NCBI GenBank assembly: GCA_029257775.1
Contig: JARIAQ010000011.1
Coordinates: 1 to 57,227, forward strand
DNA: 57,227 bases
DNA from: Blautia sp.
GTDB lineage: Bacteria > Bacillota > Clostridia > Lachnospirales > Lachnospiraceae
Direction: 5' to 3'
Under the pieces are notes generated by a model. It was not told the origin of the DNA. It made no database searches and worked only from the letters and a program-made list of their open reading frames with translations. This document shows positions 2,731-37,220 of the stretch, piece by piece. Made by a program: the position numbers and the translations under genes. The stretch's first letter is position 1; every line of letters begins with the position of its first letter.

Positions 2731-3465
2731 ATGGATACTAAAATGAATTATTCCAATCAAACTACTACAAAGGATGAGCCTGATTATCGCCAGTTATATG
2801 AAGATCTTCAAGCACAACAGCACTTTACACTTTCTCATGTCTCTCACGAAATTCGCAATCCGGTAACACTAATTAATAGTTTTTTACAGCTATTAGAGTC
2901 ACACCATCCCGAATTAAAGGAAGATAAATATTGGGAAAAAATTATGGAAAACATGGATTTTCTCAAAACACTTCTTAATGAATTTTCCAGCTTCAATAAT
3001 TCCTGTAAGCTACATTTTCAAGAATTAGATCTTTCAGAACTTCTTGAAAACCTAATTTCTTCCTTTGTACCTACTTTAAAAAGCCACAATATTTCTCTTG
3101 TCTCAACTATTGAGCCAAATCTTCCTATTATTCAGGCAGATAAAACGAAAATGTCTCAACTAATTTTAAATCTTTTAAGAAATTCTTCTGAGGCAATAAA
3201 AACAAATGGAACAATTCACTGTTCTTTATCTTCGCAAAAAAATCATCTTGTTCTTTCTGTCAAAGACAATGGAAGTGGAATTCCAGTTTTGTATCAAGAA
3301 GATCTTTTTGAACCATTCATCACCCATAAGCAAGAAGGTACTGGTCTTGGGTTACCTATTTGCAAAAGGATTGCAGAAGCTCACAATGGAAGTATTTCTT
3401 TTCAATCTATACCAGATAAAGGTACAGAATTTACTGTTCTCTTACCTGTACAACAGCCATTATAA
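2731..3465 (+). CDS. Orphan soluble sensor histidine kinase (sporulation-kinase-like)
   Basis: A 244-residue cytosolic kinase with no membrane segment and no sensory domain. The HisKA dimerisation helix carries the phospho-acceptor His in HVSHEIRNPV (near residue 39). The catalytic HATPase_c domain has an N box (LLRNSSEAI), G1 (DNGSGIP), an F box (FEPFITHK) and G2 (GTGLGLP). The NP after the H box and the FITHK form resemble the KinA-E/NtrB-like group, which phosphorylate Spo0F or Spo0A. No response regulator is adjacent. The GAGGGGG site 6 bp before the ATG supports the start. The Spo0A-like box upstream and its orphan status suggest a place in the sporulation phosphorelay, but this is inference. 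Confidence 0.82.
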   Translation: MDTKMNYSNQTTTKDEPDYRQLYEDLQAQQHFTLSHVSHEIRNPVTLINSFLQLLESHHPELKEDKYWEKIMENMDFLKTLLNEFSSFNNSCKLHFQELDLSELLENLISSFVPTLKSHNISLVSTIEPNLPIIQADKTKMSQLILNLLRNSSEAIKTNGTIHCSLSSQKNHLVLSVKDNGSGIPVLYQEDLFEPFITHKQEGTGLGLPICKRIAEAHNGSISFQSIPDKGTEFTVLLPVQQPL

Positions 3466-4086
3466 TTTATTATTAGATACGTGGCGATAAAAAAATATTC
3501 CTAATATAAATCCACTCATCAATCCACCAAAATGAGCTGCATTATCCACACCTATACTCGTCATTCCAAAGTATAAACTTAGACCCGCCATAACAATCAA
3601 CTGTCGCGTGGTAAAATTCTCAATTCGTCCTTTGTTCGCAATGACAATATAGATTAAAGCACCAATTACTGCAAAAACTGCACCCGATGCTCCTGCTGAA
3701 ATAAAATATTTGCCCTTTTTTATTTCCAAATACATGGACAAAAAATTGGCTCCAAGACCTCCAAGGAAATAAATAAGCAAATATTTTATTTTTCCTACAT
3801 TTCTCTCCAGACAATCTCCCAAAAATAACAAAACCAACATATTATTTCCCAAATGCTGAATGCCAAAGTGCAAAAACATAGAGAAAATCAAACGATAATA
3901 TTCGTGATTTTGTAAAACTGCCGGCGTATAACAACCTCCCCAACGCAAAATATGATAGCTGTCCAGAGAAGATCCAGTTAACTCCACCAGTAAAAATATC
4001 AACAAATTAAGACCAATTAAAATCGTATTTATCGGGACTTCCTTTCTCTTTCTCAGAAAATACCGAATTTCACTCTCTGTATTCAT
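3460..4086 (-). CDS. Rhomboid family intramembrane serine protease
   Basis: A 208-residue GlpG-type rhomboid with six or so membrane helices. The catalytic Ser is in GASGAVF and the catalytic His in AAHFGG; the oxyanion helix has HLGNNM. It cleaves membrane segments of substrate proteins inside the bilayer. The start at 4086 is chosen because AAAGGGG sits 5 bp upstream; a longer frame would overlap the FHA gene and add a non-conserved Lys-rich leader. It is the last gene in line with the pilus operon, 52 bp after the FHA gene, so it may process a pilus-related or sensory membrane protein. Its stop overlaps the convergent kinase gene by 6 bp. No clear terminator hairpin is visible. Confidence 0.88.
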   Translation of the reverse strand: MNTESEIRYFLRKRKEVPINTILIGLNLLIFLLVELTGSSLDSYHILRWGGCYTPAVLQNHEYYRLIFSMFLHFGIQHLGNNMLVLLFLGDCLERNVGKIKYLLIYFLGGLGANFLSMYLEIKKGKYFISAGASGAVFAVIGALIYIVIANKGRIENFTTRQLIVMAGLSLYFGMTSIGVDNAAHFGGLMSGFILGIFFYRHVSNNKL

Positions 4087-21986: not shown

Positions 21987-22060
21987 AGATTAAGAATTTC
22001 AGTGGTTTTTTTCTGTAAATAGTGTATAATAAAATAATCAAGAAAAAAGGAGGAAAGCCT

Positions 22061-22372
22061 ATGGAAGACATTATCAATAAGCTTGCAGAAATAGAAGCTG
22101 CCGCCTCTCATATTATGGAAGATGTTTCAGAGCAAAAAAAACAACTGGCACAGCAATATGAAGAAGCTGTCCATGAATTTGATTCCACCATAGACATGGA
22201 AATTCAGAATCGCTCAAAAATCATCAGACAAAAATTAGAAGTTCAAATGAAAGAAGAATTACAAAGCCAAAGAGACGAAGCTGAACAAATTTTGGCCAAA
22301 CTGGAATCTTACTACACCAAATGTCATACGGATATGGCAAAAGAAATTTATAACCGAATATTAAGGATGTGA
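22061..22372 (+). CDS. V/A-type ATPase peripheral-stalk coiled-coil subunit (G/H-like)
   Basis: A 103-residue all-helical protein with long heptad-like runs of Glu, Lys and Gln (DVSEQKKQLAQQYEEAVHEF, QRDEAEQILAKLESYY). It is the first gene of the ATPase operon, where AtpH/NtpF sits, and would pair with subunit E in the peripheral stalk. Start at 22061 is supported by AAAGGAGG 7 bp upstream; a TTG at 22022 would add a non-conserved leader. A TATAAT at 22025-22030 with a weak -35 is the likely promoter. Confidence 0.78.
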   Translation: MEDIINKLAEIEAAASHIMEDVSEQKKQLAQQYEEAVHEFDSTIDMEIQNRSKIIRQKLEVQMKEELQSQRDEAEQILAKLESYYTKCHTDMAKEIYNRILRM

Positions 22373-22376
22373 GAAC

Positions 22377-23417
22377 ATGGGAAGTTTGCTTTCTTATAGT
22401 GGTCTGTCTACAAAGGTACGAGCCATGCAAAGTAAGCTGATAAATGAAGCACAGTATCAGGAAATTGCTCAGATGCATTCTGTTACCTCTGTTGTTTCAT
22501 ATTTAAAGAAACAACCAGGTTTCCAAGATCTTTGGGCCAATCTAGATGAAAATAGTCTCCACAGAGGTGACATTGAAAAGCTTCTTACTCATACCATTTA
22601 TCAAAATTTTGCCAAATTATATCGTTTTGCTAATCCAGAACAGCGAACTTTTATGGCATTATATTTTAAACGCTATGAGCTGTCAATTATGAAAGAATGT
22701 CTTAGAAAGGTCTTTGATCAAGGACGCGCTGAACTAGATCTTTCTCTTTTTAAGGATTTTTTTGACCGCCATTCAAAACTAAATATTGAAAAACTAGCAA
22801 ATTCTTCTACTGTAGAAGAATTTATTTCTAATCTGGAGGGTTCAGAATATTACAAGCCTTTGAAAAAGCTGGGAAATGATTATTCCCCCAGAATCTTTGA
22901 TTATGGTATGGCACTAGATCAGTATTATTTTTCCAATATCTGGTCTGTGAAAGATAAAATTTTCAAAAAACGAGATTTGGAGGAAATTACAAAAGCATAC
23001 GGAAATAAATTTGATATGTTAAATCTTCAGTGGATTTACCGATCAAAAAAATACTATCATATGATTCCCGCTGATATTTATGCATTACTAATTCCTGTCC
23101 ATTATCGACTTAGTAGGAAAGATATTTCCGCATTGGTGGAATCTTCCGATGAAGAAGAATTTAGAAATATCTTAAATACTACCTATTATAAAAAACGTTT
23201 TCCAGAACTTGCACCTGAGAAACTGGAAGCTTTTTATAATTTAAATTTAAAAACTATTCTGGAAACAGAAGCTAGAAAATATCCTCACTCAGTAATTATG
23301 CTGTACTCCTACCTCTATCACAAGGAACATGAGGTAGATCGACTGACTACAGCCATTGAATGTGTCCGATACGGACTATCTTCTGCTGAGATTTTGGATT
23401 ATATTGCAAGAACTTAA
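22377..23417 (+). CDS. atpC: V-type ATP synthase subunit C
   Basis: A 346-residue helical protein of the V-ATPase AC39/subunit C family, the funnel that joins the central stalk to the K-ring. Family marks include SYSGLSTKVRAMQSKL at the N-terminus, FMALYFKRYELSIMKECLR, and the repeated-domain MLNLQWIYRSKKYYHM. The gene starts 4 bp after the stalk gene, with GGATGTGAG before the ATG, pointing to coupled translation. All nine genes from here to 30592 face the same way with short gaps or overlaps. Confidence 0.92.
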   Translation: MGSLLSYSGLSTKVRAMQSKLINEAQYQEIAQMHSVTSVVSYLKKQPGFQDLWANLDENSLHRGDIEKLLTHTIYQNFAKLYRFANPEQRTFMALYFKRYELSIMKECLRKVFDQGRAELDLSLFKDFFDRHSKLNIEKLANSSTVEEFISNLEGSEYYKPLKKLGNDYSPRIFDYGMALDQYYFSNIWSVKDKIFKKRDLEEITKAYGNKFDMLNLQWIYRSKKYYHMIPADIYALLIPVHYRLSRKDISALVESSDEEEFRNILNTTYYKKRFPELAPEKLEAFYNLNLKTILETEARKYPHSVIMLYSYLYHKEHEVDRLTTAIECVRYGLSSAEILDYIART

Positions 23418-23434
23418 TAACCGGAGGTGATTAC

Positions 23435-25390
23435 ATGATTGAAAAAATGAAATTCTTGAGTATTACCGGTCCGAAGTCTGACATTGATCGTGTGGTAAAT
23501 GAATATCTCTCCAAGTATGAAATTCATCTGGAAAATGCCATTGCACAATTAAATCAAGTGCAACACCTATCACCTTATATTCAGATAAATCCTTATAAAG
23601 ATTTATTAAACCGCATCAATGAATTTGCTGGTCAACTTAAGAATACAGAGCACGTTCCCATACATGACATTTCTCTGGATGAAATTCAGTTCTTTGTGAA
23701 TACTTTGAGTGAAAAAATTGCAAAAATCAATAAAAACTGCAATGAACTCAATGAAAAACGTGCCGCTATTACAGATGATTTAAAATGTATTACGCCTTTT
23801 CTTACTCTTCCTCAGAATTTAGACAAGCTAATACATTATCGTTTTGTTCAGGTTCGTTTTGGACGTATTCCTATAGAATACTATGAGAAATTCAAAGAAT
23901 ATGTTTATGATAATCTGGATACTATCTTTTTCCCTTGTCAACAAGACGAGTATGTGTGGGGACTTTATTTTGTCCTATGGACAAAGATGGAGCAAGTAGA
24001 TGCTGTATTTTCTTCCATGCATTTTGAGCGCATTTACCTAAAAAAAGACTATTACTATGGTACGCCTCAAGAACTTCACAAGGATTTAAAAACTCAATTA
24101 AATACTATTGATGAAAAATTAAATACCTACCATCAGGAAATTCAGGAGCTTTTAAATTCTGAGGTCAGTACAATTCTTTCTGCACAGGCTGCTCTTAATG
24201 CACTATCTACAAACTTCGATGTGCGAAAAGTAGCTGCTTGCGTACAGGAACATCAGGAAACTTTCTATATTTTATGCGGGTGGATGAGTGAAAAAGATTG
24301 TTCCTCTTTTATGAAGAATATTGAAAATGATTCCAATTTATTTTGTGTCGTAGAAGATGATAATAATAAAATCAGTTGTAAACCACCTACTAAGCTGAAA
24401 AACCCAAAGATTTTTAAACCTTTTGAAATGTATATAAAAATGTATGGTCTTCCCGACTATCATGAATTAGATCCTACTATTTTTGTAGCATTAACCTACT
24501 CTTTTATTTTTGGTGTTATGTTCGGTGATGTAGGGCAAGGTCTGCTGCTGGCACTTGGAGGTTTTGCTCTCTATAAATGGAAACAAATTACTTTAGGTGC
24601 AATTATCGGTACTGCTGGCATCTTTTCCACTTTCTTTGGTTTTATGTTTGGCAGTATCTTCGGCTTCGAACATGCTATTAATGCCTTATGGCTTAGGCCT
24701 GTAGAAGCTATGATGTTAGTTCCTGGACTTGGTCAGATGAATACAATTTTCGTCGTTGCCATTGTCTTTGGTATGTTCCTCATTCTCACAACTATGATCT
24801 TCCATATTATTAATGCGGTACGTACCCATGACACAGAGGGAATCTGGTTTGATCAAAACTCCGTATGTGGACTTATTTTTTATGGAACTTTAACCGTTTC
24901 TGCCCTTTTGTTTCTCACAGGAAAATCACTTCCTGCTACCATAATTTTGGTGATAATGTTTGTAGTTCCTCTTGTGCTCATTATGTTAAAAGAGCCCATT
25001 ACTCACATTGTGGAAAAGAAAACCCCTGTGATTGAAGGCAGTAAACCAATGTTTTTTGTACAAAGCTTCTTTGAACTATTTGAAATTATGTTAAGCTTTT
25101 TGTCCAATACCCTTTCTTTTGTGCGTATCGGCGCTTTTGCTGTCAGCCATGCCGCCATGATGGGCGTTGTTATGATGCTGGCAGGTGTAGAAAGCACTGG
25201 AAATATTAATTGGCTTATTGTTATTGGAGGCAATCTTTTCGTATGTGCTATGGAGGGTCTTATTGTGGGAATTCAAGTCCTTCGTCTTGAATATTACGAA
25301 ATGTTCAGCCGGTTTTATAAAGGTACAGGAAAAGAATTTAAACCATTTTTAAAACATGTAAACAACACACAATCTTCTGACCATGCATAA
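23435..25390 (+). CDS. atpI: V-type ATP synthase subunit I
   Basis: A 651-residue subunit a/I homologue. The N-terminal half (1-330) is cytosolic and coiled coil. The C-terminal half has about seven helices that form the ion half-channels next to the K-ring; VALTYSFIFGVMFGDVGQG and FVRIGAFAVSHAAMMGVV carry the family signatures, the latter with the essential Arg facing the ring Glu. GGAGGTGA sits 6 bp before the ATG. It is of normal length for the family. Confidence 0.94.
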   Translation: MIEKMKFLSITGPKSDIDRVVNEYLSKYEIHLENAIAQLNQVQHLSPYIQINPYKDLLNRINEFAGQLKNTEHVPIHDISLDEIQFFVNTLSEKIAKINKNCNELNEKRAAITDDLKCITPFLTLPQNLDKLIHYRFVQVRFGRIPIEYYEKFKEYVYDNLDTIFFPCQQDEYVWGLYFVLWTKMEQVDAVFSSMHFERIYLKKDYYYGTPQELHKDLKTQLNTIDEKLNTYHQEIQELLNSEVSTILSAQAALNALSTNFDVRKVAACVQEHQETFYILCGWMSEKDCSSFMKNIENDSNLFCVVEDDNNKISCKPPTKLKNPKIFKPFEMYIKMYGLPDYHELDPTIFVALTYSFIFGVMFGDVGQGLLLALGGFALYKWKQITLGAIIGTAGIFSTFFGFMFGSIFGFEHAINALWLRPVEAMMLVPGLGQMNTIFVVAIVFGMFLILTTMIFHIINAVRTHDTEGIWFDQNSVCGLIFYGTLTVSALLFLTGKSLPATIILVIMFVVPLVLIMLKEPITHIVEKKTPVIEGSKPMFFVQSFFELFEIMLSFLSNTLSFVRIGAFAVSHAAMMGVVMMLAGVESTGNINWLIVIGGNLFVCAMEGLIVGIQVLRLEYYEMFSRFYKGTGKEFKPFLKHVNNTQSSDHA

Positions 25391-25426
25391 TGGCACAGAC
25401 TGTTTATTATTTAGGAGGATTTTATT

Positions 25427-25864
25427 ATGACAACAACTATTCAAATTCTTACTGCAGCTGCTTTAATTTTAAGTATTATTATTCCATTTGGAACATTCTT
25501 TTTAGGCGAAAAAACAAAAAAGCGCTATAAAAAATCTCTTGCCTGCAACTGCTTTTTCTTTTTCGGAAGTCTTCTTGTTGCTACTATTGTAATGTTTAGT
25601 GGAACAGCCAGCGTTCATGCTGCTTCTGCTGCTTCTGCTTCTGATCTTGCTACTGGCCTTGGCTACATTGGTGCTGCTTTAGTTACTGGTCTTTCCGGTA
25701 TTGGTTCAGGTATTGCGGTTGCCAGTTCTGCAAGTGCTGCTTTAGGCGCTATTAGTGAAGATGGTTCTTTATTCGGTAAATCCATGATTTTTGTAGCCAT
25801 GGCTGAAGGTATTGCCTTATATGGTCTGATTATTTCTTTCATGATTCTTGGTAAATTAGGATGA
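25427..25864 (+). CDS. atpK: V-type ATP synthase subunit K (proteolipid)
   Basis: A 145-residue proteolipid of four helices, which forms the rotating ring. The second hairpin is well conserved (TGLSGIGSGIAVASSASAALGA, then FVAMAEGIALYGLII) and carries the single ion-binding Glu. The first hairpin is divergent and has no carboxylate, and a short AASAASAS linker follows it. At the position where Na+-type NtpK has Gln (SGIAQG) this protein has Val (SGIAVA). AGGAGG lies 9 bp before the ATG. Confidence 0.92.
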   Translation: MTTTIQILTAAALILSIIIPFGTFFLGEKTKKRYKKSLACNCFFFFGSLLVATIVMFSGTASVHAASAASASDLATGLGYIGAALVTGLSGIGSGIAVASSASAALGAISEDGSLFGKSMIFVAMAEGIALYGLIISFMILGKLG

Positions 25865-25888
25865 TGCACTATGGAAGGATGATTTCCA

Positions 25889-26197
25889 ATGAAAATGTTT
25901 TTAATCAGTGATAATATTGACACCTACACCGGTATGCGTCTTGCAGGCGTGGAAGGTGTAGTTGTCCACGAAAGAGAGGAACTTCGGCGTGCTTTAGAAG
26001 ATGCTATTAATAACAAAGAAAATGGCATCATTCTTCTCACAGAGAAATTCGGCAAAGAATTTCCTGATATTATCGATGATGTACGCTTGAACCACAAACT
26101 TCCTCTACTTATTGAAATTCCCGATCGTCATGGAACGGGACGGGCACCTGACTTCATTACTTCTTATGTAAATGAAGCAATCGGACTAAAATTATGA
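25889..26197 (+). CDS. atpF: V-type ATP synthase subunit F
   Basis: A 102-residue central-stalk subunit with a Rossmann-like fold: FLISDNIDTYTGMRLAGVEGVVV at the N-terminus and IILLTEKFGKEFPDII, ending LPLLIEIPDRHG. It binds subunit D in the rotor. GGAAGGATGATTTCC precedes the ATG. Position between K and E matches the clostridial V-ATPase order. Confidence 0.92.
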   Translation: MKMFLISDNIDTYTGMRLAGVEGVVVHEREELRRALEDAINNKENGIILLTEKFGKEFPDIIDDVRLNHKLPLLIEIPDRHGTGRAPDFITSYVNEAIGLKL

Positions 26198-26213
26198 CAA
26201 GAAGGTGATATGT

Positions 26214-26801
26214 ATGACAACAGAAGAAAAATTACAGCATTTCTATGAAGTTTCCATGGATACAGCCAGAGAAGAAGCTGCCACAATATTAGAAAAATAC
26301 AAGGCAACTCTAGAGACAGAAATGGAATGTCATAAAAAGGAAAAACAGGCTGCTTCCGAAAATCAATTTAAAATAGAATCAGACAATGCAGCCAGAGAAA
26401 TTAACAAAGCACTTTCTGCAGAGCATCTTCATATTAAAAAAAAGCTTTCAAAAAAACAACAGCAATTAAAAGAATCTATATTTGATGAAGTGGAACATCT
26501 ACTTGAAAGTTTCTCCCAAACTCCAGAATATCTAGATTGGTTGGAAGAGAAAATAAAAGAATCTTTAAAAATTGCGGAAAATGACTCTATACAGTTTTAT
26601 CTGACTGCAAAAGACTCTGATAAAATAGAGGAATTAGCAAAACGAACCGGAATTACTCCTCTTATCTCTGAAACAGATTTTTTAGGTGGTATACGAGCTG
26701 TTATTCCAGAAAAAAATATTTTAATTGACAATACGTTTCTTACTGCTTTTGAAAATGAAAAGGAACGCTTTAATTTCGATGGAGGATTTACCCATGAGTA
26801 A
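26214..26801 (+). CDS. atpE: V-type ATP synthase subunit E
   Basis: A 195-residue peripheral-stalk subunit: long charged N-terminal coiled coil (20-100) and a small C-terminal alpha/beta domain with FLGGIRAVIPEKNILIDNTF, the family signature. The ATG at 26214 is preferred over GTG at 26205 because AAGGTGAT is placed 4-5 bp before it. The stop codon overlaps the start of atpA by 8 bp. Confidence 0.9.
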   Translation: MTTEEKLQHFYEVSMDTAREEAATILEKYKATLETEMECHKKEKQAASENQFKIESDNAAREINKALSAEHLHIKKKLSKKQQQLKESIFDEVEHLLESFSQTPEYLDWLEEKIKESLKIAENDSIQFYLTAKDSDKIEELAKRTGITPLISETDFLGGIRAVIPEKNILIDNTFLTAFENEKERFNFDGGFTHE

Positions 26802-28560
26802 AACTGCTGAAATTTATGGCATCAACGGACCCGTTATCTACTTAAAAGGCAATACAGGATTTAAGATGGCGGAAATGGTTTATGTAGGAAAGGAAAATCT
26901 AGTTGGCGAGGTTATCTCCTTAAAAAAAGAAGCCACAACCGTTCAGGTATTCGAGGAAACCAGCGGACTTCGCCCAGGTGAAACCGTAACTTCCAGTGGT
27001 GATGCTATTTCCGTCACACTTGGACCTGGTATTTTAAATAATATTTTCGATGGTATTCAAAGACCTCTTTCCGTTATTGCCCAACAATCCGGAAAATATA
27101 TTTCCAGAGGTATGCAAGTAGACTCTCTGGATACAGAAAAACTTTGGGATGTTCATATGACCATTTCCGAAGGTATGGAAGTTTATGGAGGCACAATTAT
27201 TGCTGAAGTTCCTGAAACTGAGTCTATTGTGCATAAATCTATGGTTCCTCCTAATATTCACGGAGTGGTAAAATCCGTTGTTCCTGATGGAAAATACAAT
27301 ATTACCCAAACACTGGCTATACTTACACTGGAAAACGGCTCTGAATACCACTTAAAACTAGCCCAAAAATGGCCAATCCGTATTCCCCGTCCCACAAGTA
27401 AACGTTATCCTGCATCCAAACCCCTTGTAACAGGACAACGTATTTTGGACACTTTATTCCCTATTGCAAAGGGCGGTACTGCCGCTGTTCCCGGAGGATT
27501 TGGTACAGGTAAAACTATGACACAGCACCAGATTGCCAAATGGTCTGATGCCGATATTATTATTTATATTGGCTGTGGTGAACGTGGAAATGAAATGACA
27601 CAGGTATTAGAGGACTTCTCTAAACTACATGATCCTAAAACAGGAAATGCCTTGATGGCACGTACGTCTTTAATCGCCAATACTTCCAATATGCCAGTTG
27701 CTGCTCGTGAGGCATCTATTTATACAGGTATTACTCTTGCGGAATATTATCGTGATATGGGATATGATGTTGCAATTATGGCGGATTCTACTTCCAGATG
27801 GGCTGAAGCTTTACGTGAACTATCTGGACGTCTGGAAGAAATGCCTGCAGAAGAAGGATTTCCAGCTTACCTAGCCTCTCGCCTTTCTGCTTTCTATGAA
27901 AGAGCTGGTATGATGCAGAACTTAAATGGTACGGAAGGATCTGTCTCCATCATCGGTGCCGTTTCCCCGCAAGGTGGTGACTTCTCTGAACCAGTAACTC
28001 AAAATACAAAACGTTTTGTTCGCTGCTTCTGGGGATTAGATAAATCTCTTGCCTATGCCAGACATTTTCCCGCTATTCATTGGCTTACCAGTTATAGTGA
28101 ATATTTAGGTGATTTATCTTACTGGTATAGTGAAAATGTTTCTCCGAAGTTCGTAGAATACAGAAACCGCATTATGGCAATTTTAAATTCAGAAAGCAGT
28201 TTAATGGAAATTGTAAAACTCATTGGAAGTGACGTACTTCCCGATGATCAGAAATTAACCTTAGAAATAGCAAGAGTTATTCGTCTGGGATTTTTGCAAC
28301 AAAATGCTTTTCATCCTGACGATACTTGTGTTTCTCTGGAAAAGCAATTTAAAATGATGGAAATTATTCTGTATTTATATAAAAAATGTCGCGCGCTCAT
28401 TGCCATGGGCATGCCAATGTCTGTACTAAAACAGGAAAATATTTTTGAAAAAGTTATCGCGATTAAATATGATGTACCAAATGATCATTTAGAAATGATG
28501 GATGACTATCATAAAGCTGTTAAAGATTTTTATAACACGGTAATGAAAAAAAATGGATAA
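26794..28560 (+). CDS. atpA: V-type ATP synthase catalytic subunit A
   Basis: A 588-residue catalytic subunit. After the N-terminal beta barrel ([12 protein letters not shown]) and the V-type bulge domain (about 110-190) the nucleotide domain has the P-loop GGFGTGKT, the catalytic GCGERGNEM (Glu) and [14 protein letters not shown] signatures. GGAGG lies 8 bp before the ATG at 26794; an in-frame start 69 bp upstream is inside atpE and not conserved. Full length and intact. Confidence 0.97.
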
Positions 28561-28574
28561 GGAGGCACTGATTT

Positions 28575-29960
28575 ATGGCAATTGAATATTTGGGCTTAAG
28601 TGAAATCAATGGCCCTCTGGTAGTTTTAGAAGGTGTGAAAAATGCCTCTTTTGATGAAATTGTAGAGTTTCGAGTAGATGATGGAAGCAAAAAGCTTGGC
28701 CGCATTGTGGAAATATATGAAGATAAAGCTGTTATTCAGGTATTTGAAGGAACAGAAAATATGTCACTTTCCAACACGCATACTCGTCTTAGTGGGCATC
28801 CAATGGAAGTAGAACTTTCTCCAGATATTCTGGGACGTACCTTTAATGGTATTGGAAAACCTATTGACGGGCTAGGTCCTGTCATTCCTGAAATGAAACT
28901 AAATATCAATGGACTTCCATTAAACCCTGTTACACGAGAATATCCTAGAAACTTTATTCAAACAGGTATCTCAGCTATCGACGGATTAACAACTTTAATC
29001 CGTGGACAAAAACTTCCTATTTTCTCAGGAAACGGACTTCCCCATGACCAACTTGCAGCGCAAATTGTGCAGCAAGCTTCTCTTGGAAGTAACAGTGATG
29101 AAAAGTTTGCCATTGTCTTTGCTGCAATGGGGGTTAAATATGATGTAGCAGAATTTTTCCGCCGTACATTTGAAGAAAGCGGTGTATCTGATCACGTTGT
29201 TATGTATCTAAATCTGGCAAATGATCCGGTGGTAGAACGCTTAATCACTCCAAAAGTCGCACTGACTGCTGCAGAATATTTAGCATTTGAAAAAGGTATG
29301 CATATCCTCGTTATTCTTACAGATATTACCTCTTTTTGTGAAGCCATGCGTGAGGTATCTTCTTCCAAAGGAGAAATCCCTTCCAGAAAAGGGTATCCTG
29401 GATATTTATACAGTGAATTGGCAACCCTTTATGAAAGAGCTGGTATTGTCCGAAATGGTACAGGTTCCGTAACACAAATACCAATTCTTACTATGCCAAA
29501 TGATGATATTACCCATCCAATTCCTGACTTAACTGGATATATTACAGAGGGACAAATTGTACTGGATCGTCAACTTCACGGACAGGCAATTTATCCGCCA
29601 ATCAACGTACTTCCCTCTCTGTCACGTCTTATGAAAGATGGAATCGGCGAAGGATTTACAAGGGAAGATCACCAAGACGTTGCGAACCAGCTTTTTTCCT
29701 GCTATGCAAAAGTAGGCGATGCAAGAGCACTGGCATCTGTTATCGGTGAAGATGAACTGTCACCTCTGGATAAAAAATATCTTGAGTTTGGTACTGCTTT
29801 TGAAGAAAATTTCGTAGGGCAAAGAGCAGATGAAAACAGAACAATTCAGGAAACTCTGAATAAAGGATGGGATCTTCTTTCCATGATACCAAGAGAAGAA
29901 CTTGACCGCATTGATACTAAAATTTTGGATAAATATTATCCTAAAAACGCAGAAAAATAA
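28575..29960 (+). CDS. atpB: V-type ATP synthase subunit B
   Basis: A 461-residue non-catalytic nucleotide-binding-fold subunit. [31 protein letters not shown] stands in place of a P-loop, as usual for B subunits, and [31 protein letters not shown] carries the family signature. AAGGAGG sits 10 bp before the ATG. It alternates with A in the hexameric head. Confidence 0.97.
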
Positions 29961-29974
29961 AAAGGGGGAATTTT

Positions 29975-30592
29975 GTGGATCCCAATACATTTCCCACCAA
30001 GGGAAACCTGATACTTGCCAAAAACTCTCTGGCTCTTTCAAAACAAGGTTTTGATTTGATGGATAAAAAAAGAAACATTTTAATTCGCGAATTAATGGAT
30101 TTGATTGAGCAGGCAAAAGATATTCAGTCACAGATTGATATTACATTCCGTACTGCTTATGCTGCTCTGCAAAAGGCAAATATGGAAATCGGCATCAGTC
30201 ATGTGCAGGAAATTTCCAGAACCGTACCTGTGGAAAACTCCATTTCCATAAAAACACGAAGTGTTATGGGTACGGAAATTCCTCTGGTGCGCTCTGAACC
30301 GTCTTCCGATGAACCCACCTATTCCTACTATGGAACAAAAGCATCTCTTGATGAAGCCCACGCTGCCTTTGAAAAGGTAAAGGACTTAACGATTCGTCTG
30401 TCTATGGTGGAAAACTCTGCTTATCGACTGGCTGTCAATATTAAGAAGACACAGAAGCGTGCCAATGCACTGAAAAATATTACAATTCCCAAATACGAGG
30501 CACTTACAAAGAGTATCTCAAACGCATTAGAAGAAAAAGAGCGAGAAGAATTTACCCGCTTAAAGGTTATTAAAAAAATGCAGGGAAATTAA
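29975..30592 (+). CDS. atpD: V-type ATP synthase subunit D
   Basis: A 205-residue helical hairpin rotor subunit (central stalk). The N-terminal NTFPTKGNLILAKNSLALSKQGFDLMDKKRNIL helix and the C-terminal RVNALKNITIPKYE-like helix (here RANALKNITIPKYEALTKSI) are characteristic. The start is GTG at 29975 with AAAGGGGG 6 bp upstream. It is the last gene, followed within a few bases by an intrinsic terminator, which fixes the end of the operon. Confidence 0.93.
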   Translation: MDPNTFPTKGNLILAKNSLALSKQGFDLMDKKRNILIRELMDLIEQAKDIQSQIDITFRTAYAALQKANMEIGISHVQEISRTVPVENSISIKTRSVMGTEIPLVRSEPSSDEPTYSYYGTKASLDEAHAAFEKVKDLTIRLSMVENSAYRLAVNIKKTQKRANALKNITIPKYEALTKSISNALEEKEREEFTRLKVIKKMQGN

Positions 30593-30855: not shown

Positions 30856-32505
30856 TTACATGGTAATCGTAAATTTACTTCCCACTCCCAATGTACTTTC
30901 CACATCGACCTTAGCACCCAAATACATACAGCCATGTTTTACAATGGAAAGCCCCAGTCCTGTACCGCCAATTGCCTTTGAATGGCTCTTATCCACACGG
31001 TAAAATCTTTCAAATACCCGTGACTGCTCTCTCTTAGGTATTCCAATTCCCGTATCTTCCACAGAAATTTCCACCTTATTATTTTCTTCCTTCAAGGTAA
31101 CCTGCAAAGTTCCATCCTGTTTATTATACTTTAATCCGTTTTCACAGAGATTAAAGAGTACCTCATCTAAGATCATCCTTACCGTAGACACCTGAACATG
31201 AGGTCCTTCCAGATAAAGCTTAACATTTTTCTCCTTTGCGCTGTGCTCAATGCGATGAAGAACCTCTTTGGAAAGCTGATACAAATCCACCTGCTCTTTC
31301 TGATAAACAAGCTCTCCTTCATCTAACTGAGAAATTTTAATCACATCATTTACCAATGTAATCAAGCGCTGTGCTTCTTTAAAAATACGACTGGCAAATA
31401 CTTTTGTATCTTCTTGTTTTACAAAACCATCTTTTATAATCTCTGCAAACCCTGAAATAGATGTAAGAGGTGTTTTTAATTCATGGGATACATTTGCTGT
31501 AAATTCTCTGCGAAGCTGTTCTCCACGCATACGCTCTGTTACATCTAGGATAATAATAATTGCTCCTGTTACACCTTTTTCCTGCCATACAGGATTTGCT
31601 GCAATTTGGCAGCTTCTTTCTGGAAATTCGATCATTCGTACCGTATGATGCCCTTCCAGTACCTGTTCCACAACATTTTGAAATTCTCCACTTCTATTCA
31701 ATGTTAAAACACTCTGTGGTCCTTTCCATTTCGGATCTCCTAAAAGCTTCAGTGCACTAGAATTGTAAGATAACACTTCTGTATGTTTATCAATTACCAA
31801 AAATCCCTCTTCCATATTTTCTGTAATAAGGGAAAACTCTTCCTGTTGTTTTCTGGCATCCTCAATCTCACGACGAAGGGATTTCTGCTGTCTGCTAATT
31901 TTACTTAAAAGAGGTGTCAACTCGTCATACACTTGATTCTCCTCTGGATGCTCCAAATCAAGATTATTGACAGGTTCTATAATTTTCTTTGAAAGGCGAA
32001 AAGCCAAAAATGCTGATAAACCTACCATAAATACTAAAATAATAAGAATCGGCTGAATCATACCTCCTAGAAGTCCAGGAATATTATACTGAACACTGGA
32101 TACACGCAAAATTTTTCCGTCCTCTAACTTCATTGCATAGTATAAAGTCTTTTCTGATAATGTATCTGATTTTCTTACGGCTGTACCCGAACCTGTTTTT
32201 AAAGCTTTCTGAATTTCTATACGGTTTTCATGGTTTTCCATATTATTTTCGTCTGCCACACTATCAAAGAGAACCTTTCCTTCTTCATCAATATACGTCA
32301 CACGTTCTGTCTGAGGAGGTAGTTCTTTAAATGCTTCCATTCCCTCTTTCTCTACTGCAATGGCAAGATAAGCTGCTTCTACTTTCAATTCCTTCTCCAA
32401 CTGCTTTCCGAAGTAGTGATACAAAATCCCCATAATCAGTCCGGAACCCGCCAAAAGGACTGACATAGAAACTAAAAGCATGGACTTAAAAATTCTTTTT
32501 GTCAT
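30856..32505 (-). CDS. phoR: Phosphate-responsive sensor histidine kinase PhoR
   Basis: A 549-residue membrane kinase: helix 1 (about 10-30), an extracytoplasmic loop to about 145, helix 2 (about 150-170), a PAS domain (about 225-315), HisKA with the phospho-acceptor in ANVSHELKTPLTSISGF, and HATPase_c with N (FNLCENGLKYNK), G1 (VEDTGIGIP), F (FERFYRVDKSHS) and G2 (GGTGLGLSI) boxes. Its ATG overlaps the phoB stop by 4 bp. As last gene of the pst-pho unit it would phosphorylate PhoB when phosphate is low. Confidence 0.93.
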   Translation of the reverse strand: MTKRIFKSMLLVSMSVLLAGSGLIMGILYHYFGKQLEKELKVEAAYLAIAVEKEGMEAFKELPPQTERVTYIDEEGKVLFDSVADENNMENHENRIEIQKALKTGSGTAVRKSDTLSEKTLYYAMKLEDGKILRVSSVQYNIPGLLGGMIQPILIILVFMVGLSAFLAFRLSKKIIEPVNNLDLEHPEENQVYDELTPLLSKISRQQKSLRREIEDARKQQEEFSLITENMEEGFLVIDKHTEVLSYNSSALKLLGDPKWKGPQSVLTLNRSGEFQNVVEQVLEGHHTVRMIEFPERSCQIAANPVWQEKGVTGAIIIILDVTERMRGEQLRREFTANVSHELKTPLTSISGFAEIIKDGFVKQEDTKVFASRIFKEAQRLITLVNDVIKISQLDEGELVYQKEQVDLYQLSKEVLHRIEHSAKEKNVKLYLEGPHVQVSTVRMILDEVLFNLCENGLKYNKQDGTLQVTLKEENNKVEISVEDTGIGIPKREQSRVFERFYRVDKSHSKAIGGTGLGLSIVKHGCMYLGAKVDVESTLGVGSKFTITM

Positions 32506-33179
32506 TCTTCCCCTCCTACTCTATACCCTACACCTCGAATCGTCTCAATATAATGTCCGGCCTCTTTCAGTTTCTGACGCAAGGTTCTGATATGCACATC
32601 TACCGTTCTGCTTTCCCCATCAAACTGATAACCCCAGATTTTATCTAAAAGTTGTGCCCTTGTAAACACAATGCCCGGATTGGATAAAAGCAATGCTAAA
32701 AGTTCAAATTCCTTCATAGTAAGCGTCACTTCTTCCCCATTTACTTTCACTAAATGGCGCTTCTTAGACACATATAACTCTCCTAAAGTATATGCTTCTT
32801 CTTGCTCCTGCTCCAGACCTCCTCTACGAAGCAATGCTTTCACTCTGGAAACCAACTCCATCATACGAAATGGCTTAGGGATATAATCATCTGCACCTCC
32901 ATCTAAACCCTTTACAACGTCATATTCACTTCCCTTTGCCGTCAGCATGGCAATGGGGATATTTTTAGTTTCCTTCTTTTTTCGAAGCTTTTGTAAAATT
33001 TCAAGTCCATCCTCTTCTGGAAGCATAATATCCAAAAGCACTAAATCTGGAATTTTCTTTTCCATAGCATGCCAAAAATCAGAGGGATACGCAAATCCCT
33101 CTGCTACAAGCCCTTGACCATTTAAGGTATATACTAATAACTCTCTGATACTTTCATCGTCTTCCACTAAATAAATCAT
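32502..33179 (-). CDS. phoB: Response regulator PhoB/PhoP (OmpR family)
   Basis: A 225-residue regulator with a receiver domain (MIYLVEDDES; phospho-acceptor Asp in PDLVLLDIMLPEEDG; Lys in YIPKPF) and a winged-helix domain (KEFELLALLLSNPGIVFTRAQLLDKIWGYQF). AGAGGA lies 7 bp before the ATG at 33179, inside the end of phoU; the longer frame from 33203 is not supported. It is expected to bind the direct repeats upstream of pstS. Confidence 0.94.
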   Translation of the reverse strand: MIYLVEDDESIRELLVYTLNGQGLVAEGFAYPSDFWHAMEKKIPDLVLLDIMLPEEDGLEILQKLRKKKETKNIPIAMLTAKGSEYDVVKGLDGGADDYIPKPFRMMELVSRVKALLRRGGLEQEQEEAYTLGELYVSKKRHLVKVNGEEVTLTMKEFELLALLLSNPGIVFTRAQLLDKIWGYQFDGESRTVDVHIRTLRQKLKEAGHYIETIRGVGYRVGGEE

Positions 33180-33183
33180 TCTA

Positions 33184-33834
33184 TTATCCTCTATCTGCTT
33201 CATGCTTTCCTGTTATTGAATATACTACCCACTGAGCAATGTTCTCTGCATGATCCCCGATTCTTTCCAGATATTTGGCAATCATAATAAGATCAATATA
33301 ATATTCTGCTTGTTGCGCATCTTTTTTCAGCATATTGGGAAGCTCTTTTTTTACCTTCAAAAACAGCTCATCTACTACATCATCATACTCTATAACCTTT
33401 GCTGCGGCTTTTAAATCCTTTTTAACAAAAGAATTAATACTTTCTGTCACCATTTTAATGGCTGCTTCAGCCATTTCTCCTATATGAATTTTATGAGCTA
33501 ACTCTTTTACTTGTACAAAACGAGACATATCTGCAATATCCTGTGCCTGATCTCCAATTCTCTCCATATCAGAAATCATTTTTAATGCAGAAGATATCTG
33601 TCTTAAATCACCGGCTACGGGCTGTTGCTGAAGAAGAAGCTTCATACAAAGAGTTTCAATCTCTCTTTCTTTTTGATTGATTTCTTCCTCAATCCCATCT
33701 ACAAGCTCTTTTACTTCTTCACTGGTATCCTCCAGCTGGTCCACTGCTCTTCGGATTGCTTTTTCACATAAAGCCCCCATTTTAATCAGCTCTACATTAA
33801 GTTCTTCAAGCTGCTGATCGAATTTTGTACGCAT
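33184..33834 (-). CDS. phoU: Phosphate signalling protein PhoU
   Basis: A 216-residue protein of two three-helix repeats, each with the metal-cluster motif: the first has EEEINQKEREIETLCMKLLLQQQPVAGDLRQI, the second YDDVVDELFLKVKKEL followed by IAKYLERIGDHAENIA. It links Pst transport to PhoR signalling and acts as a negative regulator. The start overlaps the pstB stop (TGATG) with GGGAGG upstream, so translation is probably coupled. Confidence 0.95.
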   Translation of the reverse strand: MRTKFDQQLEELNVELIKMGALCEKAIRRAVDQLEDTSEEVKELVDGIEEEINQKEREIETLCMKLLLQQQPVAGDLRQISSALKMISDMERIGDQAQDIADMSRFVQVKELAHKIHIGEMAEAAIKMVTESINSFVKKDLKAAAKVIEYDDVVDELFLKVKKELPNMLKKDAQQAEYYIDLIMIAKYLERIGDHAENIAQWVVYSITGKHEADRG

Positions 33835-34589
33835 CAGCCAAACCTCCCTGTAATATAATCTTCTGTTTTCTTATTTTTAGGCATAGAAAACATTTCCTCT
33901 GTATTTCCGTACTCTACCATTTCCCCTAAAAGGAAAAAAGCCGTCTTATCTGAAATACGTGCCGCCTGTTGCATATTATGAGTAACCATAACAATGGTAT
34001 ATTTTTTCTTTAATTCTACTGCTAATTCTTCAATTTTTGAAGTGGAAATAGGATCAAGTGCAGAAGTGGGCTCATCCATAAGCAATACTTCTGGTTCTAC
34101 CGCTAATGCCCTTGCAATACAAAGTCTTTGCTGTTGACCACCGGACATGCCAAGAGCACTTAATTTTAAACGATCTTTTACTTCATCCCAAATCGCAGCA
34201 CTTCTTAGTGACTGCTCTACAATTTCATCTAACTTTACTTTTGAACGGATTCCATGTGTTCTAGGACCATAAGCAATATTATCGTAGATGCTCATAGGAA
34301 ATGGATTTGGTTTTTGAAATACCATTCCAACCCGCTTTCTTAAAAGATTAACATTCATGTCGCCATAAATATCTTCCCCATCTAATAATATTTTTCCTGT
34401 AATCTGACATCCTTCTACCAAATCATTCATTCGATTAAAAGATTTCAACAAGGTAGATTTTCCGCAACCAGATGGTCCAATAAATGCAGTAATCTCATTT
34501 GCCTGAATTTCCATGTTTATGCTTTTCAACGCATGAAAAGCGCCTTTGTCATAATATAAATCCAAATTGGAAATTGAAAACTTACTCAT
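33834..34589 (-). CDS. pstB: Phosphate ABC transporter ATP-binding protein PstB
   Basis: A 251-residue ABC ATPase: Walker [11 protein letters not shown] loop [21 protein letters not shown], signature [20 protein letters not shown] and Walker [14 protein letters not shown]. The KPNPFP form of the Q loop is diagnostic for PstB. AGGAAG precedes the ATG. It energises phosphate import by PstCA. Confidence 0.97.
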
Positions 34590-34598
34590 TCTTCCTGT

Positions 34599-35450
34599 TT
34601 ATCCTTTCTTAATCTTACCGGCAATTCTTCCAGACAGCCAGTTAATTACTAATACAATTAGAAGCAGTACAACGGCTGTTGCATAAGCCTGATTCACATA
34701 CAAACCTTCACTTGCAAGGGAGTACATATGTACAGACAAAGTTCTTGTAGAAGACATTACACTGTCTGGAATTTCTGCAAGCGTTCCTGCCGTATACATC
34801 AAAGCTGCAGTTTCACCAACAATACGTCCGATAGATAAAATAACACCTGAGAAAATTCCTGGTACCGCAGAAGGTAAAATAACTACAAATATTGTTCTAA
34901 GTTTTCCTGCTCCCAGACCAAAACTAGCCTCGCGATAAGTATCCGGTACCGCTAGAAGAGCTTCTTCTGTGGTTCGCATAATTACAGGAAGCACCATAAT
35001 TGCTAATGTAAATACACCTGCAAGCATAGAATAACCCCAACGTAGGGTAGTAACAAAAAATAGCATTCCGAACAAACCATATACAATAGACGGAATACCA
35101 GTAAGTGTTTCTGCTGTTACCCGCACAACTGATACTAATTTATTTCCCTTTTTTGCATACTCTACCAAATATACTGCTGCAAAAATCCCCAAGGGGCCTG
35201 CAACACACAGGGATAGTACAATCATTAAAATAGTATTAATAATCGCCGGAAACATAGAAACATTTTCTGAATTATATTCCAATTCAAATAACTGTGGAGT
35301 TAGATGAGGCACACCCTTAATTAAAATATATCCCACAATAAAAATCAGTGTTATCGCTGTAAATATCGCACTAATCCATACTAATAAAGCTAAAAAGAAT
35401 GAGCTAGGCGAGTGTGCATACACCTTTAATTTCCGACGTATCTTATCCAT
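34599..35450 (-). CDS. pstA: Phosphate ABC transporter permease PstA
   Basis: A 283-residue permease with six helices and the coupling segment EALLAVPDTYREASFGLGAGKLRTIFVVILPSAVPGI. TGIPSIVYGLFGM is the shared PstA/PstC motif. The ATG overlaps the pstC end by 8 bp with GGAGGGG upstream. Confidence 0.95.
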   Translation of the reverse strand: MDKIRRKLKVYAHSPSSFFLALLVWISAIFTAITLIFIVGYILIKGVPHLTPQLFELEYNSENVSMFPAIINTILMIVLSLCVAGPLGIFAAVYLVEYAKKGNKLVSVVRVTAETLTGIPSIVYGLFGMLFFVTTLRWGYSMLAGVFTLAIMVLPVIMRTTEEALLAVPDTYREASFGLGAGKLRTIFVVILPSAVPGIFSGVILSIGRIVGETAALMYTAGTLAEIPDSVMSSTRTLSVHMYSLASEGLYVNQAYATAVVLLLIVLVINWLSGRIAGKIKKG

Positions 35451-36315
35451 TTATGCCCCTCCTTTTTACTAATGAAAATAGCAAGTTAATCAATAAAATA
35501 AATACAAAAAGTACAACGGCTGTTGCAATCAACGCATCTTTATGAAGATCTGCTGCATATCCCATTTCCATAACAATATTTGATGTTAAAGTACGAACAC
35601 CTTTAAACAAACCTTTTGGCATACGAGGCTGATTTCCTGCAATCATAATAACCGCCATAGTTTCTCCAATCGCCCTTCCAATACCTAAAATCACACCTGC
35701 TGCCACACCAGATTTTGCTGCTGGCAATACCGTACGAAACACACTTTTTTCATGCGTTGCTCCAAGGGCTAAAGAACCTTCATAATAGCTATCAGGTACT
35801 GCACGGATGGCTGACTCACCTACGCTGATAATGGTAGGTAAAATCATAATTCCAAGCATTAACGATGCCGTAAACATACTGGAACCATCTCCTCCAAATC
35901 CCAGTTGAACACCAAAGAAGTCGCGTACAAAAGGTACAATTACTACCATACCAAAAAATCCATATACAACCGAAGGAATACCTGCTAACAATTCAACCGC
36001 TGGCTTCATAAATTTATATAATTTAGAAGGACAAAATTTTGCCATAAAAACAGCTGTACAGATGCCAATCGGTACACCAATTAAAACAGCTCCTGCAGTA
36101 ACATAGATACTTCCTAAAATAAATGGCAAAATACCATAAATGTTGTTTCCCGGTTTCCATCTTTCTCCTAACAGAAAATTAAAAACTCCTATTTCACCAA
36201 TGGCCGGAATACCATTGGCAAATAAGAAAATACAAATTAATGCTACTGCCAGAATAGACGCACAGGCACACAGAAGAAACACATATTTCATAAAGGTTTC
36301 TTTTATATTTTTCAT
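35443..36315 (-). CDS. pstC: Phosphate ABC transporter permease PstC
   Basis: A 290-residue permease with six helices; LLAGIPSVVYGFFGMVV and ESAIRAVPDSYYEGSLALGATHEKSVFRTVLPAAKSGV give the family motifs and coupling helix. It pairs with PstA to form the channel. It follows pstS by 20 bp, with AAAGGGATAAAGG before the ATG. Confidence 0.95.
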   Translation of the reverse strand: MKNIKETFMKYVFLLCACASILAVALICIFLFANGIPAIGEIGVFNFLLGERWKPGNNIYGILPFILGSIYVTAGAVLIGVPIGICTAVFMAKFCPSKLYKFMKPAVELLAGIPSVVYGFFGMVVIVPFVRDFFGVQLGFGGDGSSMFTASLMLGIMILPTIISVGESAIRAVPDSYYEGSLALGATHEKSVFRTVLPAAKSGVAAGVILGIGRAIGETMAVIMIAGNQPRMPKGLFKGVRTLTSNIVMEMGYAADLHKDALIATAVVLFVFILLINLLFSLVKRRGING

Positions 36316-36335: not shown

Positions 36336-37220
36336 TTACTGAAGGTCACTCCATTCTGTAATTTCACCTGTATAAATATCTTTTACCTGATCTGCTGTAA
36401 TATCATTCATGGTATTTTTATTATTCACAATAACAGCAATACCATCTAGTGCAATTTCCTGCCCTTTTAACCCTGCTTCCCTTTCAGAATCTTTTAAATC
36501 TCTAGAAGCCATTCCAATATCACAAATACCATTTAATGCAGACTCCATACCTGTTGTAGAATCGCTTTGCTGAATTTCAATTTCCACATTGGGATTTACT
36601 TCTTCATAACCTTCCTTCAATTTTTCCATTACTGGAGTAACAGAAGAAGATCCTGCAACTACAATTTTTCCAGAAGGCTTTGTTCCTGCATATGCTACAG
36701 AATCATCTGCAACAGAAATACATCCATTATCTTCTACAATTTTCTGTCCCTCTTGGCTTAAAATATAAGAGATAAAATCCTGAGTCACTTCACTTGCACC
36801 TTCTTTTGTAGCAATATTAAAGGGACGGGCAATCTTATAAGTATCATTTTTTACATTTTCTGCAGTAGCTTCCGCTCCATCTACTTTTAAAGATTTTACA
36901 GACTGATCTAAAGAACCTAAAGAAATATATCCGATTGCCTGCGGATTACCAGCTACACTTGTCATCATAACCGATGTATTATTTGTTACCTGTGCATCTT
37001 CTGTGGTATTATCAATTTTTTCTCCCGATGCATCTTTTTCTTCAATCCCAAATAATTCAATAAAAGCGCTTCTTGTTCCAGAACCTTCTTCTCTAGAAAT
37101 TACAGAAATTTCTCCTTTTGGCGCTTCTGTATTTTTTTCTTCTGTATTTCCACTTCCACATGCTGTTAAACCCAATACCATGGTTCCCATTAAAATTGCT
37201 GCTAACATTTTTTTCTTCAT
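36336..37220 (-). CDS. pstS: Phosphate-binding lipoprotein PstS, circularly permuted
   Basis: A 294-residue lipoprotein (lipobox LTAC, Cys21) in first position of the pst operon. The parts of PstS are all present but in swapped order. Residues 36-170 carry what is normally the C-terminal half (ISVISREEGSGTRSAF at 38-53, QAIGYISLGSL, ARPFNIATK, ILSQEGQKIVE). Residues 184-294 carry what is normally the N-terminal half (KIVVAGSSSVTPVMEKL, IQQSDSTTG 216-224, IGMASRDLK, DIYTGEITEWSDL at the very end). The two halves meet at a short YAGTKPSG linker. All phosphate-contact loops are kept, so the protein should still bind phosphate. AAAGGAG is 12-13 bp before the ATG. Confidence 0.92.
   Translation of the reverse strand: MKKKMLAAILMGTMVLGLTACGSGNTEEKNTEAPKGEISVISREEGSGTRSAFIELFGIEEKDASGEKIDNTTEDAQVTNNTSVMMTSVAGNPQAIGYISLGSLDQSVKSLKVDGAEATAENVKNDTYKIARPFNIATKEGASEVTQDFISYILSQEGQKIVEDNGCISVADDSVAYAGTKPSGKIVVAGSSSVTPVMEKLKEGYEEVNPNVEIEIQQSDSTTGMESALNGICDIGMASRDLKDSEREAGLKGQEIALDGIAVIVNNKNTMNDITADQVKDIYTGEITEWSDLQ

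Follow-up and report, generated by a model that had tools for sequence, protein, structure and literature searches.

We analyzed a 57,227-nucleotide stretch of the Blautia sp. genome (Lachnospiraceae; GenBank assembly GCA_029257775.1, contig JARIAQ010000011.1, positions 1 to 57,227; hereafter the window), in which pstS, encoding the phosphate-binding lipoprotein PstS, heads an unbroken pstS-pstC-pstA-pstB-phoU-phoB-phoR run (Table 1). A preliminary description of this DNA, made without database searches, had proposed that the two halves of PstS are swapped and that its gene leads an intact pst operon. Pfam domains confirmed the operon, and the comparisons below bore out the swap.

Swapped halves of PstS

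A PF12849 profile search of the Blautia genome returned two pieces above the cut-off, both inside pstS and in swapped order, the early part of the model falling in the C-terminal part of the protein and the late part in the N-terminal part (130.2 bits over two stretches; cut-off 27). pstS was the only gene with such matches; two more pieces elsewhere in the genome were below the cut-off. TIGR02136 also aligned to the native protein in two stretches (195.6 bits, below the curated cut-off of 206.6), and in a search of solved chains the ordinary PstS structures 4q8r, 4gd5, 1twy and 4exl each aligned as two swapped stretches. 4h1x aligned collinearly in one stretch (residues 32-292, E 4.3e-63). 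Rotating the halves back gave the reciprocal result: TIGR02136 aligned in one stretch (model 41-293, 205.8 bits), as did each of the four ordinary chains, and 4h1x became two. Because the protein is below the whole-protein cut-off of TIGR02136 both native and rotated, we file it as a permuted PstS variant, homologous to the PstS family over the whole domain but with a domain order that is not collinear with the family. Pfam matches up to E 1 include PBP_like_2, other binding-protein models and LysR models.

4H1X is the crystal structure of PstS2 (SP_2084) from Streptococcus pneumoniae, which has the same permuted order as Blautia PstS and lies on a separate deep branch in our trees. A structure model of Blautia PstS matched 4H1X over its full length, with the same halves and the same cut. 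Together, these comparisons indicate that the protein is a natural circular permutant of PstS with a complete fold. Ordinary TIGR02136-type PstS proteins, such as those of Clostridium perfringens (4Q8R and the near-identical 4GD5) and Vibrio cholerae (1TWY), are homologous to it over both halves and share its ligand-loop motifs, but have the opposite half order and probably have both chain ends in the other lobe. PstS2 belongs to one of two pneumococcal Pst systems (PMC4913102), whereas Blautia has the single PF12849 gene noted above.

The pstS open reading frame (ORF) has an ATG start, and its stop codon lies within positions 36336-37220. Half A carries the motifs REEGSGTR (residues 43-50) and GYISLGSL (97-104); half B carries GSSS (190-193), D220-S221 and MASR (237-240). 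In 127 of 146 distinct permuted ORFs, the chain ends 4 or 5 residues past a conserved tryptophan (0-10 in the remainder), and this tryptophan is 10 residues from the next strand in 54 of 79 normal-order ORFs; we therefore placed the cut in the loop after the tryptophan. The Blautia chain stops 4 residues past W290, in the loop following GEITxW, rather than exactly at the hinge as first described. YAGTKPSG, originally given as the linker, does belong to the joining stretch, which as a whole is 13-16 residues long, counted between the equivalents of I168 and G184, in every one of these 146 ORFs. The strand order suggests that lobe 1 is now continuous and lobe 2 split, with model residues 131-138 and 252-265 as the probable lobe-crossing strands. 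Both chain ends and the lipid anchor would therefore lie on lobe 2, not lobe 1.

An Rfam scan of the whole window at gathering thresholds matched only a tRNA, with no RNA feature at pstS. Promoter-like sites at pstS occurred at chance number (7 found vs. 7.5 expected; a Pho box was not searched for). Beyond the phoR-type gene lies a plus-strand gene run resembling a V-type ATPase, judged from its ORFs (window 22022-30592).

Table 1. Positions of pst-locus features in the window and of permuted PstS-like genes adjoining cotransporters at other loci (L, locus handle)
Feature	Position	Strand	Basis
pstS, circularly permuted phosphate-binding lipoprotein, 294 aa	36336..37220	-	ORF; two swapped PF12849/TIGR02136 stretches; collinear with 4h1x
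Putative signal peptide to lipobox-like LTAC (Cys21)	37158..37220	-	read from sequence
Half A, residues 38-172 (C-terminal half of ordinary PstS)	36705..37109	-	PF12849 model 108-267; 4q8r 119-245
Joining stretch between old C- and N-termini, residues 173-183	36672..36704	-	linker lengths in permuted ORFs
Half B, residues 184-294 (N-terminal half of ordinary PstS)	36339..36671	-	PF12849 model 3-134; 4q8r 3-113
pstC permease, starts 20 bp after pstS	35443..36315	-	PF00528; PstC homologues next to permuted pstS group together
pstA permease	34599..35450	-	PF00528
pstB ATPase	33834..34589	-	PF00005
phoU	33184..33834	-	PF01895
phoB-type response regulator	32502..33203	-	PF00072 + PF00486
phoR-type sensor kinase	30856..32505	-	PF00512 + PF02518
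Divergent permuted PstS-like genes adjoining Na+/Pi cotransporter, no pst operon	L029:1493-2422, L195:4619-5647, L197:3046-4062, L198:3924-4841, L201:5082-6011		
Further genes of the same kind	L237, L238, L240, L242, L243		

Distribution and origin of the permuted form

We compared the 80 best of 88 homologous loci in other genomes: 79 have the permuted order, and the remaining one, L083, is cut by a contig end. This agreement excludes a chance arrangement, gene breakage or a false join in the assembly. The preliminary description expected similar proteins in other Lachnospiraceae; they were found, and the range proved far wider. Within the family, 50 of 150 genomes (own included; E 1e-45 or better) carried the permuted form and 50 of 150 had an over-cut-off TIGR02136 match, each one normal-order stretch; three genomes (G071, G087 and G093) had both. 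At the phylum level, the permuted form occurred in 10 of 299 genomes, own included, after we set aside one of the 11 matched genomes (G305), whose protein is of normal order and matches by one half. A normal-order TIGR02136 match at 1e-40 or better occurred in 124 of 199 genomes, a phylum sample of different size. Counting seed genomes, the permuted form was also present in the class of Collinsella provencensis (15 of 119 genomes), the family of a Campylobacter metagenome-assembled genome (8 of 120) and the phylum of Fibrobacter intestinalis (20 of 80). A plasmid of Treponema saccharophilum carries permuted pstS with pstCAB and phoU alongside. Permuted PstS is thus present in five phyla: Bacillota, Actinomycetota, Campylobacterota, Fibrobacterota and Spirochaetota. 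In nine of ten genomes tested, the sole TIGR02136 matches at 1e-10 were the two halves of the permuted form. Two permuted genes beside pstCAB, at L280:5920-6789 and L281:4465-5280, are labelled merely "substrate-binding domain-containing protein".

Tandem pairs of permuted pstS were seen at G077:C1:311884-313760 (L192) and at L282:1594-2547 with 2773-3669. Short, unannotated faecal records named "Bacteriophage sp." (MT837962.1, MT837530.1 and others) match permuted PstS in one piece; they are probably bacterial DNA filed as phage, and we did not use them as evidence.

We built trees after rotating the halves to one common order. A FastTree analysis of 166 rows grouped all 120 permuted rows, with a base support of just 0.15. 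A tree of 47 rows picked for diversity (26 of 127 permuted and 21 of 74 normal) gave one order change in 96% of bootstraps, with a branch support of 94/30. In a more widely sampled tree of 59 rows (25 of 172 permuted and 34 of 74 normal), forcing the permuted rows together cost 0.16 log-likelihood units (approximately unbiased (AU) test, p 0.477), and removing the single normal-order row L166 left the permuted group whole in 88% of bootstraps. Taken together, the trees, the constraint test and the removal of L166 favour a single origin without proving it. The PstC homologues beside 34 permuted genes also formed one group against 40 beside normal genes (Shimodaira-Hasegawa-like approximate likelihood ratio test (SH-aLRT) 94, quick tree; 74 rows drawn from 191 pairs that include duplicates), so permuted PstS and its permease seem to have moved together.

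Several observations weigh against the reading of a working PstS that was permuted once. The rotated sequence still falls 0.8 bits short of the TIGR02136 cut-off. With L166 included, the 59-row tree needs two order changes and keeps the permuted group whole in 40% of bootstraps; the second change arises because L166, a long-branched sequence of odd composition, falls among the unresolved basal branches of that group. A search for duplication intermediates yielded none: no ORF at 232 loci had two A or two B halves above 25 bits. Finally, 18 of 145 distinct permuted genes had no pst gene on the same strand within 1.2 kb (10 beside a cotransporter and 8 with neither), many loci having flanks of only about 1.5 kb. 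As candidate intermediates, we also considered nine long frames (L183-L191, 484-851 aa; eight from the family and L191 from elsewhere in the phylum) that match TIGR02136, but each holds one normal-order PstS-like domain, some at weak scores.

We judge that the permuted form probably arose once. An in-frame tandem duplication of pstS within a normal-order PstS subfamily, followed by loss of the outer halves, probably produced it, and it would then have spread across phyla together with its own permease. Repeated permutation at the same loop appears unlikely: the deep branches and the behaviour of the 59-row tree leave room for it, but the small cost of keeping the permuted rows together, the shared cut site and linker length, and the single group of adjoining PstC proteins speak against it.

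Function and membrane anchor

The claim that all ligand loops are kept agreed with an alignment of 45 proteins, in which R43, G46-R50, S191, S193, D220, S221, S239 and R240 are invariant; these residues presumably contact inorganic phosphate (Pi), as in ordinary PstS. Among 173 distinct permuted ORFs, the pattern GS[STDA][ST] was present in all and SGT[RY] in 169, while of the four exceptions two have SGTK and two do not include this region of the chain. In S. pneumoniae, a phoU2 mutant regained its growth yield when any one of the Pst2 components was deleted (data not shown in that study), and the encapsulated strain requires Pst1 or Pst2 (PMC4913102). The main text of that paper contains no word starting with "permut". 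Although from another species, these Pst2 data are the strongest evidence for a permuted PstS functioning in a cell.

We consider it very probable that Blautia PstS is a naturally occurring circular permutant of the phosphate-binding lipoprotein of the Pst ATP-binding cassette (ABC) importer, and conservation, the operon and the pneumococcal relative suggest that it is most likely a working one. The chain starts at the strand bearing REEGSGTR, runs through the old C-terminal half, crosses the joining stretch to enter the old N-terminal half and stops in the loop after GEITEW. As in other PstS proteins, the two lobes would close on Pi and pass it to PstC/PstA, with PstB driving transport and PhoU, PhoB and PhoR exerting control.

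PstS has a type II fold. TpMglB-2 (Tp0684) of Treponema pallidum, likewise a circularly permuted substrate-binding lipoprotein and very likely part of an ABC importer, has a type I fold and binds glucose, so its permutation would be an unrelated event; its relatives occur in gut Gram-positives (PMC4990184). Following the idea of a tether raised for TpMglB-2, the permutation of PstS could have been selected because it transfers the membrane anchor from one lobe to the other. A lipobox-like motif does precede the fold in 148 of the 173 ORFs by a simple pattern, and the predicted topology does change the anchored lobe. We nevertheless find this explanation improbable, since forms from the Campylobacteraceae search keep the permutation with an ordinary-looking cleavable signal (start AEN, no lipobox by eye; five inspected), and the anchor-to-fold length is similar in lipobox-like ORFs of both orders (median 24 in 128 permuted vs. 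20 in 72 normal). That the gene is instead a functionless fusion of two pstS-copy remnants, made by chance or in assembly, is refuted and has almost no probability left: such a fusion would be expected midway in a permutation by duplication, and G077 holds a tandem pair, but the order is shared across genomes and with the crystal structure, the ligand loops are invariant, the operon is intact and the genome holds no other over-cut-off PF12849 gene, in keeping with the first assessment that the gene is not broken.

That assessment also knew of no description of such proteins as a permutation, which agrees with the open-access papers searched. None of these mentions 4H1X (structural classification databases may mark it as permuted), and "circular permutation" and "PstS" occur together in just one of them, on a lake virome. 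Judged from titles and abstract openings, the literature matches listed included no natural permuted binding protein other than TpMglB-2 (PMC4990184). Permuted PstS is thus apparently known as a structure and undescribed as a permutation in that literature.

Cotransporter branch and implications

By the neighbour test above, 127 of the 145 distinct permuted genes had a pst gene nearby and 13 a Na+/Pi cotransporter gene, three of which also had a pst gene. Among 78 normal-order genes, 57 had a pst gene, 21 had neither and none had a cotransporter. At the ten cotransporter-only loci (Table 1), the stop-to-stop frames of the two genes share as much as 70 bp or are separated by no more than 80 bp, and all five cotransporter neighbours tested contained PF02690 and PhoU. 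In the 59-row tree, nine representatives of the cotransporter-type permuted PstS formed one branch at 100/99. Six adjoin a cotransporter (L029, L195, L197, L238, L242 and L243); for L239, L241 and L244, none was found within their short flanks. Genes resembling polyphosphate kinase by eye lie near the branch at L029:2379-4550, L198:905-3016 and L241:3-1481.

Adjacency alone does not show that the PstS-like protein and the cotransporter work together. We tentatively raise the possibility, which we think doubtful as a whole, that one old permutation gave rise to a PstS class, that this class and its own permease spread together through five or more phyla, and that one divergent branch left the ABC importer to serve the Na+/Pi cotransporter (PF02690 plus PhoU domain) as its binding protein. 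If so, the pair would represent a secondary transporter of a new, binding-protein-dependent kind. To our knowledge, such a pairing would be new; a search of open-access papers on it brought up one unrelated paper. This branch is of greater interest than the window's own pstS, whose interest is moderate.

The permutation in pstS is real and conserved, in a gut bacterium and in many other bacteria. It may explain weak annotation, given the scores below the TIGR02136 cut-off and the two generically named relatives, and the matched natural pairs of permuted and normal proteins could serve to test folding and tethering. For a textbook binding protein such as PstS, the existence of a natural permutant within the same importer suggests that function resides in the lobes and docking faces rather than in the order of the chain or in which lobe is anchored.
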